A stretch of DNA of 64,000 nucleotides from a bacterium HR29 (GTDB lineage: Bacteria > Chloroflexota > Dehalococcoidia > Tepidiformales > Tepidiformaceae), in NCBI GenBank assembly GCA_002898215.1, contig BEIF01000001.1, positions 1,401,602-1,465,601 of the forward strand, written 5' to 3'. The position numbers were made by a program, and so were the translations under genes. The notes under the pieces were generated by a model. The model was not told where the DNA came from and ran no database searches. It saw only the letters and a list, made by a program, of their open reading frames with translations. This document shows, in pieces, positions 23,158 to 29,209 of this stretch. The number at the start of each line of letters is the position of its first letter. Positions within the stretch are counted from its first letter, which is position 1.

Positions 23158-24900
23158 ATGATGGACGTGCCTCCGAACTCCGCGATGCCCTCCACCCGAG
23201 GGCTGAACTTCTTCGAGGCGGACCCCAACCTCTCTGCGGTCCTCGCCCTTCGCGCCGGACCCGGGGAGGCCGAGCGAGCGCTTCCCGTCCTGCGGGAGCT
23301 GGGAGAGATAGCCGGAACCGAGCTCGACGAGCTTGCGACCATCGCCGACCGGAACCCTCCCGTGCTGGTCACGCACGACCGCGAAGGGCGCCGCGTCGAC
23401 GAAATCGTGTACCACCCTGCCTACCGGCGCATGCAGGAGCTGGGGTTCTGCCGCTTCGGGTTCGCGGCGATGTCCCACCGCCCGGGGGTCCTCGGTTGGC
23501 CGGGCACGGTGCCTCACGTGGTGAAGTACGCCCTCTCGTACGTGTTCGTGCAGGCGGAGTTCGGGCTCTTCTGCCCCATCTCCATGACCGATTCGGCAGC
23601 GCGGGTGCTCCGCCTCTTCGGACCCGATGAGCTCCGAGCGCGATACCTGCCCGGGCTCACCAGCACCTCGATGGAGACGCTGCTCCAGTCCGCCCAGCTC
23701 ATTACCGAGCGCACGGGCGGGAGCGACGTTGGGGCGAGCGAATGCGAGGCCCGCCCTGCCGATGGGTACTGGGAGATCTGGGGCGAAAAGTGGTTCTGCT
23801 CGAACGCCGGCGCCGACGTGCATCTCGTGCTCGCGCGCCCGCCGGGTGCGCCACGGGGCACCAGGGGGCTCGGACTCTTCCTGGTGCCGAAGCTCCTCCC
23901 CGACGGCTCCCGGAACCGGTACGTCATCCGCCGGTTGAAGGAGAAGCTCGGCAGCCGTTCGATGCCGACCGGCGAGTACGAATTCCACGGCGCCGTCGGA
24001 TACGTGGTCGGGCAGCTCGACCGCGGATTCCACCAGATGGCCGAGATGATCAACGTCTCCCGGCTCTCGAACGGGATGCGTGCCGCTGCGCTGATGCGCC
24101 GGGCGCTCCTCGAGGCGGCGGTGCACACGAAGGGACGTTCGGCGTTCGGACGGGCCCTGGCGGACCTGCCGCTGGTGCGGGAGCAGCTCCTCGAGCTTGT
24201 CCTGGACGCCGAATCGGCCATCAGCATCGTCCTGTACGCTGCGGCAGCGCTCGACGCGGCCGACGGGGGCTCGGAAGGCCATCAGCGGGTAGTGCGCATC
24301 CTCACACCGCTCATCAAGTACGCCGTCTGCCGGCAGGCGCGGAGCGCGGCGGGGCTTTCGATGAACCTTCGGGGAGGGAACGGCTACATCGAGGAGTGGC
24401 CGAACGCCCGCCTGCTCCGCGATGCCTACCTGGGGAGCATCTGGGAGGGGGCCGAGAACGTCGTGGCGCTCGACGTCGCGCGGGCCGCGCGGAAGGAGGC
24501 GGCACACGAGGCGCTCTTGGCCGATTTGGAGGGGCGGCTGGCGCGCGCCACCGACCCGGTCGTATCCGAGGACGCAGCGGCGGTTCTCCGCGAGCTCGCG
24601 TCCGTTCGCGAGGGGTTCGCGCGGTTCCTCGACGCCTGGGACGACGAAACCGAGGCACGAATCACCGCCTGGTGCGACCGCTTGGCGGCGGTGACGTGCG
24701 CGGCGCTCTTGGCCGAAGAGGCCGACGCCGAAGCCCGGCAGGGGCGCGGATACCGGAAGGCGGCCGTCGCGCGGGCGTACCGCCTCCGGCGCGCCGAGCG
24801 CCGGGACCCCCTCGGCTGGCGCACGCCGCCGGCGTCGGTGCTGCGCGCCATCCTCGACGGCGCGCAGCTCGATGCCCGGGCGCTCGCGGCGATCTCGTAG
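23158..24900 (+). CDS. AidB-like acyl-CoA dehydrogenase
   Basis: A 580-residue flavoprotein of the acyl-CoA dehydrogenase fold, AidB/isovaleryl-type long form. Visible: AQLITERTGGSDVGASE (flavin/substrate loop), GGNGYIEEWPNARLLRDA and SIWEGAENVVALDV, where the Glu matches the family's catalytic or structural position in IWEGSGN. A C-terminal ~130-residue helical extension is typical of AidB. AidB proteins bind DNA in E. coli, but the C-terminal DNA-binding basic patch is not obvious here, so a metabolic role is equally possible. ATG 23158 (or 23161) sits 6 nt after a -10 box. It is followed by an FAH hydrolase. Confidence 0.88.
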   Translation: MMDVPPNSAMPSTRGLNFFEADPNLSAVLALRAGPGEAERALPVLRELGEIAGTELDELATIADRNPPVLVTHDREGRRVDEIVYHPAYRRMQELGFCRFGFAAMSHRPGVLGWPGTVPHVVKYALSYVFVQAEFGLFCPISMTDSAARVLRLFGPDELRARYLPGLTSTSMETLLQSAQLITERTGGSDVGASECEARPADGYWEIWGEKWFCSNAGADVHLVLARPPGAPRGTRGLGLFLVPKLLPDGSRNRYVIRRLKEKLGSRSMPTGEYEFHGAVGYVVGQLDRGFHQMAEMINVSRLSNGMRAAALMRRALLEAAVHTKGRSAFGRALADLPLVREQLLELVLDAESAISIVLYAAAALDAADGGSEGHQRVVRILTPLIKYAVCRQARSAAGLSMNLRGGNGYIEEWPNARLLRDAYLGSIWEGAENVVALDVARAARKEAAHEALLADLEGRLARATDPVVSEDAAAVLRELASVREGFARFLDAWDDETEARITAWCDRLAAVTCAALLAEEADAEARQGRGYRKAAVARAYRLRRAERRDPLGWRTPPASVLRAILDGAQLDARALAAIS

Positions 24901-25926: not shown

Positions 25927-26543
25927 GCGGCGAGAGAGGAGCGCTGGCGCTGGTGGGGCGAGGCACGCCGCTGGACCGAGCGGTCGCGGTATGGTGGGCG
26001 GAACGGCACGGTCCGCTCGCCCTTGCCACCATCGACCCGACGTCGGAACAGGAGTACGCCCTTGCGTCCATCGCCAACGAAGCGTGGGCCATCGGTCGGC
26101 CGCAGGTTGTGGAGCGCATCGATGCGGCCCACGCGGCCAGCATCACCGCCTTCGCCTCGGAGGTGTTCGACCGCTTCGGGACGTGTGCCGTCCTGGTAGT
26201 GAACGCAGGCCAGCGGTCGGAGGCGCCGCTGGTAGAGCTCTCCGCGGACGAGTGGGCGGCCGTGCTGCGAACGAACCTCACCGTGCCGTTCCTCGCGCTC
26301 CAGGCATTCGGGCGGCTGATGCTGCGGGAAGGGCGCGGCGTGGCCGCAGCGATCCTGCCACCCCTCGACAGCGGCGATGCGGCGATGGCCGCGGCACGCG
26401 CGGGCCTCATCGAAGTCGTGCGGCGGATGGACGAGGCATGGGGCGAACAGGGCGTTCGCGTCATTGCGGTCGAAGCCGCCGATCCCGAGGCGCTGGTCGC
26501 GGTCCTCGCCGATGCCCTCGAACGGACAGCGAAGGGTTCTTAG
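25923..26543 (+). CDS. Degenerate SDR-fold protein lacking the catalytic Tyr-Lys pair
   Basis: A 206-residue Rossmann-fold protein. ALALVGRGTPLDRAVAVWWA, VLVVNAGQRSEAPLVE and LRTNLTVPFLALQ align with SDR segments (cofactor loop, NAG, helix alpha-5). The glycine-rich loop is GRGTP instead of GxxxGIG, and where YxxxK should be there is DAAMAAARAGLIEV with neither Tyr nor Lys. It is therefore probably a non-enzymatic ligand- or nucleotide-binding relative. GTG 25923 couples to the small membrane protein. Its stop overlaps the large DUF2325-type gene (TTAG). Confidence 0.7.
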   Translation: MSGERGALALVGRGTPLDRAVAVWWAERHGPLALATIDPTSEQEYALASIANEAWAIGRPQVVERIDAAHAASITAFASEVFDRFGTCAVLVVNAGQRSEAPLVELSADEWAAVLRTNLTVPFLALQAFGRLMLREGRGVAAAILPPLDSGDAAMAAARAGLIEVVRRMDEAWGEQGVRVIAVEAADPEALVAVLADALERTAKGS

Positions 26544-29209
26544 GGGCCTGGCTGGGCGGCAAGCCGATCCACCTCCCGCAGGAGCCCGGTGACCCCGTTG
26601 GCGTTGACGAGCACGCACCGGTCCCCCGCGGCCGTCCGCGCCCGTTCGGTGGCGGCGTGGCTGATGTAGGGGACGATGACGAGGACGTGGTCGCAGGCGC
26701 CAGCCGCGGCCTGGGGCAACTGATTTCCGTCTTTCGCCTCGTCCGGTCCGAGCCACTGCACCTCGTGCCCACGCGCTTCGAGCTGCGGCAGAGCATGCCG
26801 CCGGACGCGCTGGTGTCCCCCTACGACGAGGAGACGCAAGCGGCGAGGCGGTGGGGCATCGGCGGGTGGTTCGACCGCAGGAAGAGGGATCTCCGGAAGC
26901 GCGAGGCCGTCTCCGAAGCGCTCGCGGAGTTCACGCCAGAGGAAGAGCACTTCGCCGGCGAGCTCTGGCGGAGGCTGCCCCTGGAGGTTGGCTTGCAGTG
27001 GTGCCAGCACCGTCGCGACCTGGTCCGGCGTGTCGACGGTGTCGAGCATGGCCGTGGCGTACTCGATCGAGGCGAGCACGCGGATGCTCCGATGGCCCTT
27101 GTTGCACCACTCCGCGAGCCATGCGCGGACAGCCTCCGGTTCCCAAGCCGCCTGCGCGTGTCGGAGCAGCCGGAGGAAGGCCTCGCGGCCCTTGTCACGA
27201 TTGCCGGCCGCTTCGGCGAGGGCCGCCTGGTACAGTCGCTCCCGAGCTTCACGGCTGCTGGGGATCTCGTTCCGGTCTTCCACCAGCGCGGCAAGGCGGT
27301 TGAGACCCGCCCCGTCACTCTCGGCCTTCGCCAGCTCGAGAAGACCGTCGAGGGTGTCGCCTTCCGGCAGCCCGAAGGCCTCGATTCGTGCCCCGAGGAC
27401 GCCGTGCTCCGAGAGCGCCCGCCCCCACGCTTGGGAGCCCACCAGCGCCATCTCCTGGAGATAGGCATCGAGCGACTCCTCGCCCACGGTGCGGGCTTTG
27501 ACCCGGCGGATGAGCTCCGACGCGAGACCGGGGTACTGGTCGGGAGCGGGCGCTCCCTGGGAGAGAACCGCAGGGCGGAAGACGGCGAGGAACTCGGCGA
27601 GCGCGCGCCGTTCGTCGTCATGTGGGACAGCACGAAGGAGCCGCCGGCGGAGGTTCATGTCCGCCAGCTCCTGGTCAAGCGCGGCCACCAGCGCGAGCGC
27701 CGCGACCCCCGCTGCCGGACGGTCGGCGGCCGGCAAGGAATCGACCAGTTGCACCAGAGCGCCCGCTGCCTCTCCCAGATGGGCACGTTGGCCCGGAGGA
27801 GCGGCAGGCCACCAGTCGCGTACCTCGGCCAGAGCGGCTGCTCCGGCGAGCCAGCACGCCGCGCCGAGCAGCGCTGCCCTCCGAACCTGGGGCGGTGCGC
27901 CGCTTCGGACGATGGTCAACAGACCAACGAGCGAGCTGCCGTCGGGCCCGGGGGCCACGGAGAGAGCCTCCGCCAAGCGCTTGAGGGCCTCCAGGTCCGG
28001 AGCCTCGGCGACGATCCAGTGCCAGTGCCGGGAAGCGGCCGCGTCGGCGAGCCCGGCCCGATGTTCCGGCCCGAGACCCGGACCCTCGAGCGCGGTTGCG
28101 AGGGCTGCGCCCGCCGACTCGATGTCCCCCGCCTCCGCGGCCAGTGCGTTGGCCAGGAGCGCCGATGCGGCTCTCGCCACCGTCTCGCGGCGCGCGTTGG
28201 CGATGCTTCGCGGAAGTGCAACGCCGCTGGTAGCTTCGAGCCAGCGAAGCGAGCGTTCCCAGTCGCCCGCGTTCGCAGCCGCGTACGCCTCGAGAGCACG
28301 CCAGGTCGGGGAAGGTTCGATGGCCAATTGCCGGGCGATTTCCTCGAGCGCACTCCTCGGGTCCGTGCGGCAGAGGTCGAGGAGCTCTTCCGGGCGGCGG
28401 GAGGCGGGAGCGGCAGGCGCGCCGGACGCGACATCGCGGGCCCCGGGTATCGCCGCGACCTCCCGGAGTGCGCTCAGCCCGTGCTCGAGCCGTTCGAGCC
28501 CGTCCGCGATGCGGCGCTCGAGCCGCTCCAGCCGCTCGCCGATTTTCCTGTAGGCCTCAGCGAGCTCCGTCGCGCGCTCCTCGGTCCTGCGGCTCGCCTC
28601 GAGCAGTTGCCGGCTCGCTGCCTCGAGTTCGGACCACGTCGCGGGAGACGGGGCGCGCACGCCGACCGGGGGCTGCTCGGCGGGGGCCGGCCACGCTGCC
28701 ATGCCGGCCGGCCCTTCTCCGGCGTTGATGTAGGCGAAGGCGACCATCGCCACGTGCAGGCGAGTGTCCGGATAGACCCATGCCCGTAGCTCCGGGTCCC
28801 ACCGGTAGCCGGGTATGCGCTTCGCTTGGTCGCGGTCCTCGAAATGGCAGAAAACGAGGATCTGCCCATCCTGGACCCTGACGGTGTGCGGCTGCCCTCG
28901 CGGACAGCGGTGCGCCTCCGCTTCGCGAATGCGGCGTTCGACCTCTTCCTGGACATCCGGGGATTCGTACTCGATGGCAGCCCCGTCGACGAGCCTACGA
29001 AGAGCGGGAACCACGGTGCCCGCAAAGCGCTGGGGAATGATCACCGCTCCGCCGTCTCCGGCGTAGGGCAGGGCGCGTTGGAATTCCGCCAGGAGGCCGG
29101 CAGTCTCTTCGTCCGGCGTCCCGAGGGAGATTCGCAGGAGGTCGAAGCTCCCCGATTCGCGCTCAACCCTCAGCCGGATTCGATTCGGAGGCGAGGGAGG
29201 GCGGGACAT
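26540..29209 (-). CDS. Large multidomain protein with C-terminal DUF2325-like domain
   Basis: An 889-residue cytosolic protein of unknown function. Residues ~100-160 contain FCHFEDRDQAKRIPGYRWDP and AWVYPDTRLHV, a pattern like the HARP-type/small DNA-binding motif GxRWDPExxxW. Residues ~185-250 are a predicted coiled coil (SRRTEERATELAEAYRKIGE). Residues 260-780 are Ala/Leu-rich helices that look like TPR/HEAT repeats. Residues ~795-885 resemble DUF2325 (PF10087): RRLRLLVVGGHQRVRRHALP, VLVIVPYISHAATERART. The order suggests a scaffold with a nucleic-acid or ligand-sensing end. Single gene, leaderless-type promoter. I cannot assign a function. Confidence 0.6.
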   Translation of the reverse strand: MSRPPSPPNRIRLRVERESGSFDLLRISLGTPDEETAGLLAEFQRALPYAGDGGAVIIPQRFAGTVVPALRRLVDGAAIEYESPDVQEEVERRIREAEAHRCPRGQPHTVRVQDGQILVFCHFEDRDQAKRIPGYRWDPELRAWVYPDTRLHVAMVAFAYINAGEGPAGMAAWPAPAEQPPVGVRAPSPATWSELEAASRQLLEASRRTEERATELAEAYRKIGERLERLERRIADGLERLEHGLSALREVAAIPGARDVASGAPAAPASRRPEELLDLCRTDPRSALEEIARQLAIEPSPTWRALEAYAAANAGDWERSLRWLEATSGVALPRSIANARRETVARAASALLANALAAEAGDIESAGAALATALEGPGLGPEHRAGLADAAASRHWHWIVAEAPDLEALKRLAEALSVAPGPDGSSLVGLLTIVRSGAPPQVRRAALLGAACWLAGAAALAEVRDWWPAAPPGQRAHLGEAAGALVQLVDSLPAADRPAAGVAALALVAALDQELADMNLRRRLLRAVPHDDERRALAEFLAVFRPAVLSQGAPAPDQYPGLASELIRRVKARTVGEESLDAYLQEMALVGSQAWGRALSEHGVLGARIEAFGLPEGDTLDGLLELAKAESDGAGLNRLAALVEDRNEIPSSREARERLYQAALAEAAGNRDKGREAFLRLLRHAQAAWEPEAVRAWLAEWCNKGHRSIRVLASIEYATAMLDTVDTPDQVATVLAPLQANLQGQPPPELAGEVLFLWRELRERFGDGLALPEIPLPAVEPPADAPPPRRLRLLVVGGHQRVRRHALPQLEARGHEVQWLGPDEAKDGNQLPQAAAGACDHVLVIVPYISHAATERARTAAGDRCVLVNANGVTGLLREVDRLAAQPGP

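Follow-up and report, generated by a model that had tools for sequence, protein, structure and literature searches.

A Dehalococcoidia protein family uniting tandem HARP-like units, a TPR-like solenoid and a C-terminal DUF2325 domain: a candidate DNA-associated scaffold and sensor

What kind of protein is encoded by a long minus-strand open reading frame of the heat-loving bacterium HR29 (Chloroflexota; Dehalococcoidia; Tepidiformaceae), and is there reason to connect it with the handling of abnormal or foreign DNA? The frame lies in a 64,000-nucleotide stretch of contig BEIF01000001.1 (positions 1,401,602 to 1,465,601), referred to here as the window, whose own numbering is used throughout. 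A first-pass annotation, made from the sequence alone, had described an 889-residue protein consisting of a HARP-like N-terminal region, a coiled coil, a long helical repeat and a DUF2325 domain, and had proposed it as a candidate for a new system, with a hint of defence. The order of domains proved to be right and the architecture is well supported; the function is one that we infer, and our tentative preference, held at rather less than an even chance, is for a DNA-associated scaffold and sensor serving genome maintenance or defence. The gene and its parts are:

26540..29209, minus strand: the gene for an 889-residue protein with a HARP-like tandem, coiled coil, TPR-like solenoid and DUF2325 (open reading frame and homologues)
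28967..29182, minus strand: degenerate first HARP-like unit, residues 10-81 (AlphaFold model and alignment; the sequence profile is blind to it)
28715..28909, minus strand: second HARP-like/DUF5710-like unit, residues 101-165, with GYRWDPELRAWVYP (alignment, profile and AlphaFold model)
28457..28636, minus strand: single 60-residue helix, predicted coiled coil, residues 192-251 (AlphaFold model and heptad test)
26906..28393, minus strand: TPR-like alpha-solenoid, variable, residues 273-768 (AlphaFold model and fold comparison)
26555..26839, minus strand: DUF2325 Rossmann-like domain, the most conserved part, residues 791-885 (Pfam and AlphaFold model)
26657..26659, minus strand: codon of His851, a residue that does not vary within the family and that all other DUF2325 sequences compared also have

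An ATG opens a single frame of 889 codons at 26540-29209, exactly as first annotated. A protein search of 61 related genomes recovered 12 full-length homologues of ~900-950 aa, all from the same GTDB family, which were 24-28% identical to the window protein along its entire length (E 1e-18 to 6e-33). Pairwise comparison of these relatives gave ratios of nonsynonymous to synonymous substitution (dN/dS) of 0.24-0.46, and the protein is therefore under purifying selection, though not strong. Based on these homologues and ratios, the frame is a real gene; the long antisense frame at 25991-28789 (+) was rejected as its high-GC shadow. With the window genome counted, a full-length member was present in 13 of the 37 genomes of one Dehalococcoidia family, including Tepidiforma flava (NZ_CP115149) and several Dehalococcoidia metagenome-assembled genomes, and in one further genome (G030) the only match was weak and partial, interrupted by an in-frame stop. 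Profile searching of 343 Dehalococcoidia genomes confirmed a deeper relative, built in the same way, from a different family of that class (G058), beyond which a 400-genome search of the phylum added no full-length members.

Searches for a known family of established function that would account for the whole protein, the finding by which the first-pass annotation was to be refuted, gave no such assignment: they found DUF2325 as the only significant Pfam domain, nothing in NCBIfam, no PADLOC match up to E 1 and no relative in a sequence search of the PDB. Judged by its sequence, the window protein belongs to an undescribed full-length protein family. Each of its domains is of a known or recognisable kind; an architecture of HARP-like units, solenoid and DUF2325 was not found described in the available portions of the literature that mentions DUF2325.

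The C-terminal DUF2325 domain (PF10087), recognised in the first-pass annotation, was matched by Pfam at residues 793-878 with an E of 2.7e-6 in the whole protein and 9.5e-8 for the domain alone, corresponding to 27.9 and 32.6-33 bits, respectively, against a gathering score of 33.6. All 14 family members matched DUF2325, one relative lying above the cut-off at 40.6 bits, and the domain is the most conserved region across the family. G797, G798 and H851 are invariant, giving the domain both its VGG start and the conserved histidine that follows strand three, and residues 792-885 adopt a Rossmann-like fold in the full-length model. Some relatives have a cysteine beside the conserved histidine (CISH or CIGH); the window copy and the Tepidiforma proteins lack it. 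The VGG start and histidine are shared with Cj1384 of Campylobacter jejuni, also PF10087, but Cj1384 is a small stand-alone protein rich in cysteines (7 in 104 residues), whereas DUF2325 forms the last tenth of the window protein and lacks those cysteines.

At the other end of the protein, alignment of the relatives revealed two ~60-residue units in tandem that share a PG-x-RW...W core. The profile built on unit 2 recognised unit 1 of every relative (E 6e-10 to 5e-4 per 1000 sequences), and the two units are therefore repeats of one domain. The AlphaFold model of the Tepidiforma flava tandem is beta-beta-alpha-beta-beta-alpha twice over, with a predicted local distance difference test score (pLDDT) of 95.8 and a predicted template-modelling score (pTM) of 0.89. 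In the window protein, GYRWDPELRAWVYP, in which the HARP-like motif had been noticed, forms the core of a beta-beta-alpha-beta-beta-alpha unit at residues 101-165 that is HARP-like by fold. Unit 1 of the window copy is unrecognisable to the unit-2 profile (E 65), the PGxRW motif that its relatives keep being gone; a strand-strand-helix-strand-helix fold persists in the model (strands 10-17 and 23-29, helix 34-46, strand 56-59, helix 60-73). The same profile also matched a Dehalococcoidia tyrosine recombinase at its N-terminus (E 5e-11 per 1000 sequences) and a small coiled-coil protein at its start (E 3e-9). In the two Dehalococcoidia genomes with this recombinase (L060:1255-1737 in G246 and L061:1414-1896 in G254), the open frame is cut off by an in-frame stop, directly beyond which comes the catalytic part, still in that frame.

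The Tepidiforma flava tandem was used as the Foldseek query against a viral library of predicted models, in which the strongest matches were a phage protein without a name (E 5.3e-7) and a 'HepA-related protein' of a Bacillus phage (E 1.3e-5, probability 1.00). Lower matches included several SF2 helicases, a DUF5710 protein and a 73-residue protein annotated as SMARCAL1 (TMt 0.59, E 0.48). The HARP domain of SMARCAL1 (PF07443, 4O66) and the phage 'HepA-related' proteins resemble the family in having small alpha/beta units in tandem and a P-x-x-R/Y-W/D...W motif, but SMARCAL1 is an SNF2-type annealing helicase fused to HARP, whereas the window protein is without a helicase domain. Among PDB structures, the top fold match for either unit was the archaeal XPB damage-recognition domain (Z 5.0-5.3, 1.9-2.4 A over 54-55 residues, 7-14% identity; for 2fwr, Z 5.3 and 1.9 A over 55 residues), a Z below 8 being one that can mean a common arrangement and a Z of ~5 not excluding a chance one. 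MutS domain I ranked lower, and it was for its likeness to the MutS mismatch-recognition domain that the XPB domain received its name (PMC3353954). The XPB domain is N-terminal to an SF2 helicase, whereas the window protein has neither ATPase nor helicase.

By sequence profile, the unit was closest to DUF5710 (PF18974), with an E of 8e-4 in the best family member, under the Pfam cut-off; in the family, in contrast, the unit is in tandem. Pfam HARP gave only sub-threshold values (E 0.06-0.12) in two proteins related to the window family, the recombinase unit and the N-terminus of the deeper relative G058, the latter being the sole HARP match listed in the family at E 1. In Chloroflexota, Pfam HARP had just two sub-threshold matches, both in short open reading frames. 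Alignment of the unit to a HARP set by hhalign was not significant (P 0.083), and 4O66, which was located with an approximate HARP query, was not recovered by profile. Its absence among the PDB fold matches listed is no evidence against a HARP-like fold. As such, the term HARP-like holds for fold and motif, and membership in Pfam HARP is unproven.

Between the two ends of the protein lie its most variable parts. The coiled coil of the first-pass annotation is upheld in that one helix is predicted at residues 192-251, but its heptad pattern is only modestly above that of shuffled sequences (125/5000). The long helical repeat corresponds to residues 273-768, which are all helical in the model and resemble TPR and HAT superhelices with Z-scores of up to 10.3 and a high root-mean-square deviation; weak TPR matches in Pfam (E ~0.003) were found in some family members.

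HARP in the annealing helicase SMARCAL1 binds irregular DNA structures. By analogy, the HARP-like units of the window protein may bind junctions, transitions between single and double strands, or lesions, an activity that we liken also to the role proposed for the XPB damage-recognition domain. The long helix would let the protein pair up, the solenoid would recruit a protein partner encoded elsewhere in the genome, and DUF2325 could bind a small ligand or metal, or signal, around the invariant His851. A protein of this design would couple the recognition of abnormal DNA to a response, be it repair, replication restart or defence. Several points weigh against this reading: DNA binding by the units is a prediction, the motif of unit 1 is lost in the window copy, the PDB Z-scores of the units are all below 8, and their sequence link to the HARP of SMARCAL1 is not significant. 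In addition, neither a catalytic domain nor a partner gene nor a neighbour with a DNA-repair function can be seen, and the full-length window model is of moderate confidence only (pLDDT 77.4, pTM 0.57).

The position of the gene was compared among the full-length homologues, as the first-pass annotation had advised. In 10 of the 12 relatives it lies directly upstream of leuC on the same strand, with a gap of ~65-110 nt in which a -10-like sequence was seen by eye in several of them. Among the genes upstream of it are those for a CAP-domain protein and for others that are probably exported. In G007, the sequences that flank the gene in the congener G027 run on without a break, with ATGCGCTGA between them, the coding sequence missing almost exactly from start to stop (L100:9080-9701 in G007 against L023:1-3152 in G027, both flanks 84-90% identical within one genus). 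The gene is likewise absent from G017. In the window genome, the same upstream genes adjoin leuC without the gene, which is 1.4 Mb from leuC. Given the empty sites and this separated position, the gene is dispensable and has moved. It also changes quickly: between most genera LeuC is 84-87% identical and the window-family protein 30-38%, and of eight genes at the leuC locus it was the fastest or near-fastest changing. No defence island or sign of a mobile element was seen at the locus, and carriage as mobile cargo was rejected based on the lack of any match in plasmids, phages or viral contigs. The earlier statement that no partner is adjacent was correct, the window neighbours being housekeeping genes. 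The proposal of a new system holds only in part: the protein family is indeed undescribed, but nothing resembling a multi-gene system can be seen at the locus, which is a housekeeping one in both the window and the relatives.

A different setting for DUF2325 was found in the gene clusters of Dpd, an anti-phage system of 7-deazapurine DNA modification and restriction whose islands are described as comprising dpdA-C and a restriction operon dpdD-dpdK (PMC11888242). In the chloroflexotal genome G676, the order is DpdJ, DpdK, a 752-aa TPR-DUF2325 protein, DpdE, DpdF, DpdG and DpdH, and the order DpdJ-DpdK-TPR-DUF2325 recurs in G562, G355 and a Scytonema plasmid that also carries DpdA. The TPR-DUF2325 protein thus directly follows DpdJ-DpdK in all four Dpd loci with context, from two phyla (Chloroflexota and Cyanobacteriota). 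The four proteins are:

L075:7652-9907, TPR-DUF2325 protein of G676
L138:8954-11170, TPR-DUF2325 protein of G562
L139:1-1834, TPR-DUF2325 protein of G355
L106:14001-16187, TPR-DUF2325 protein of the Scytonema plasmid AP018264

In G676 and Scytonema, the DpdK frame runs a few bases into that of the TPR-DUF2325 protein. No PADLOC model covers the TPR-DUF2325 protein, which is possibly an uncatalogued Dpd component. Beyond these genes, the G676 cluster goes on (L076) with large proteins of 1535, 770, 248 and 207 aa, the first of them DpdJ-like by BLAST, which suggests a second, partly duplicated Dpd module. In Pseudanabaena, a stand-alone DUF2325 protein is encoded two genes past cas1-cas2 in a type III-A CRISPR locus (115 aa, L107:11989-12336, Pseudanabaena galeata plasmid pPg_04).

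The Scytonema protein (NIES4073_01370) resembles the window protein in its long TPR-type helical region ending in DUF2325, but it stands in operon-like order with DpdJ-DpdK and, as in the other Dpd-linked TPR-DUF2325 proteins, no HARP-like unit was recognised in it. The Dpd-linked and CRISPR-linked DUF2325 domains form one group (support 0.97) that excludes the window family, whose homology to the Dpd-linked proteins is proven over DUF2325 alone (hhalign 96.3%, E 1.8e-9). Consequently, these loci are a lead on the domain and prove nothing about the window protein, whose own membership in a Dpd system was rejected, as no dpd genes surround it, its neighbours being metabolic and transport genes. 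Genome-wide tests were weak: the DpdE model gave only partial SNF2-type matches in the window genome, as in all controls, and the DpdH model found nothing there and nothing in any control, which leaves absence from the whole genome unproven.

The strongest competitor to a DNA-associated scaffold and sensor is an anti-phage defence protein, acting as a single gene or with a partner, in which the HARP-like units would sense foreign or replicating DNA, the variable solenoid would recognise a phage or host component and DUF2325 would be a signalling module common to the Dpd- and CRISPR-linked proteins. The Dpd and type III-A CRISPR loci speak for it, as do the fast evolution of the gene, its patchy distribution with clean empty sites, and a solenoid that varies while DUF2325 is conserved. 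The fixed housekeeping site beside leuC, the negative PADLOC, plasmid, phage and viral-contig searches, and the failure, in weak tests, to find a Dpd system in the window genome argue otherwise, and the Dpd-linked proteins form a clade of their own. The early hint of defence receives indirect backing from those proteins, which the first-pass annotation had no means of seeing, and we consider an anti-phage role possible but doubtful. A sensor of redox state, metal or oxidative stress, with DUF2325 as the working part and the rest as adaptor, is less probable again. Its model would be Cj1384, the gene for which is PerR-regulated, lies in the katA cluster and was the most induced gene (352-fold) at a bactericidal dose of light and reactive oxygen species (PMC9426514), and for anammox bacteria DUF2325 has been put forward as a possible secondary cargo of encapsulins (PMC6934571). 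However, the many cysteines of Cj1384, and the one next to the histidine, have no counterpart in the window copy, and no oxidative-stress genes adjoin the gene in the window or the relatives.

Two further explanations do without a DNA-related role. Chance persistence of a gene that is in decay or close to neutral would fit the low identity, the degenerate unit 1 of the window copy and the interrupted partial match in G030, but the dN/dS of the relatives, conserved residues throughout and open frames of ~900 codons in 13 genomes make this improbable. Least probable is a role in leucine biosynthesis (leuC, leuD, leuB), as its local regulator or partner, which the position upstream of leuC in most relatives would recommend. 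Genomes without the gene keep leuC and the same upstream block, and an operon partnership was rejected in view of the -10-like sequences between the two genes, the cleanly empty sites and the distance of the gene from leuC in the window genome.

The architecture puts HARP-like DNA-structure units, to date best known from SMARCAL1, in front of a bacterial scaffold that ends in the widespread and unexplained DUF2325. A broader proposal, which we regard as speculative and rather unlikely as a whole, is that DNA-surveillance and DNA-defence proteins make general use of DUF2325 as a module for signalling or ligand binding; among them the window family would be a one-protein version with tandem HARP-like units recognising abnormal or foreign DNA, the TPR-DUF2325 protein an uncatalogued Dpd component, and the CRISPR-linked protein a third use. 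DUF2325 also gains a testable context as the end of a TPR protein, unmodelled in PADLOC, that two phyla carry directly after DpdJ-DpdK in restriction clusters of the Dpd type, and working it out in either setting would guide annotation in many bacterial genomes.

In the window, the gene is flanked on one side by an SDR, a FAA hydrolase, an AidB-type acyl-CoA dehydrogenase, a second SDR and an amidase, and on the other by a lipoprotein-like open reading frame, MgtE, tRNA-His, PhoU and a Pst transporter. The acyl-CoA dehydrogenase (23158-24900, plus strand), three genes off, has an AidB N-terminal domain of the adaptive-response type; it is probably unrelated to the gene, as such enzymes are common in fatty-acid and aromatic gene groups. 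The tRNA-His was the only Rfam match near the gene, and the relatives' loci that were tested had none. At the leuC locus, a non-coding stretch of ~107 bp near a divergent gene for a probably exported protein (L025:8336-8442 and L100:9351-9457), which has no Rfam match, is 83% identical between species, compared to ~70-78% for the coding regions there.

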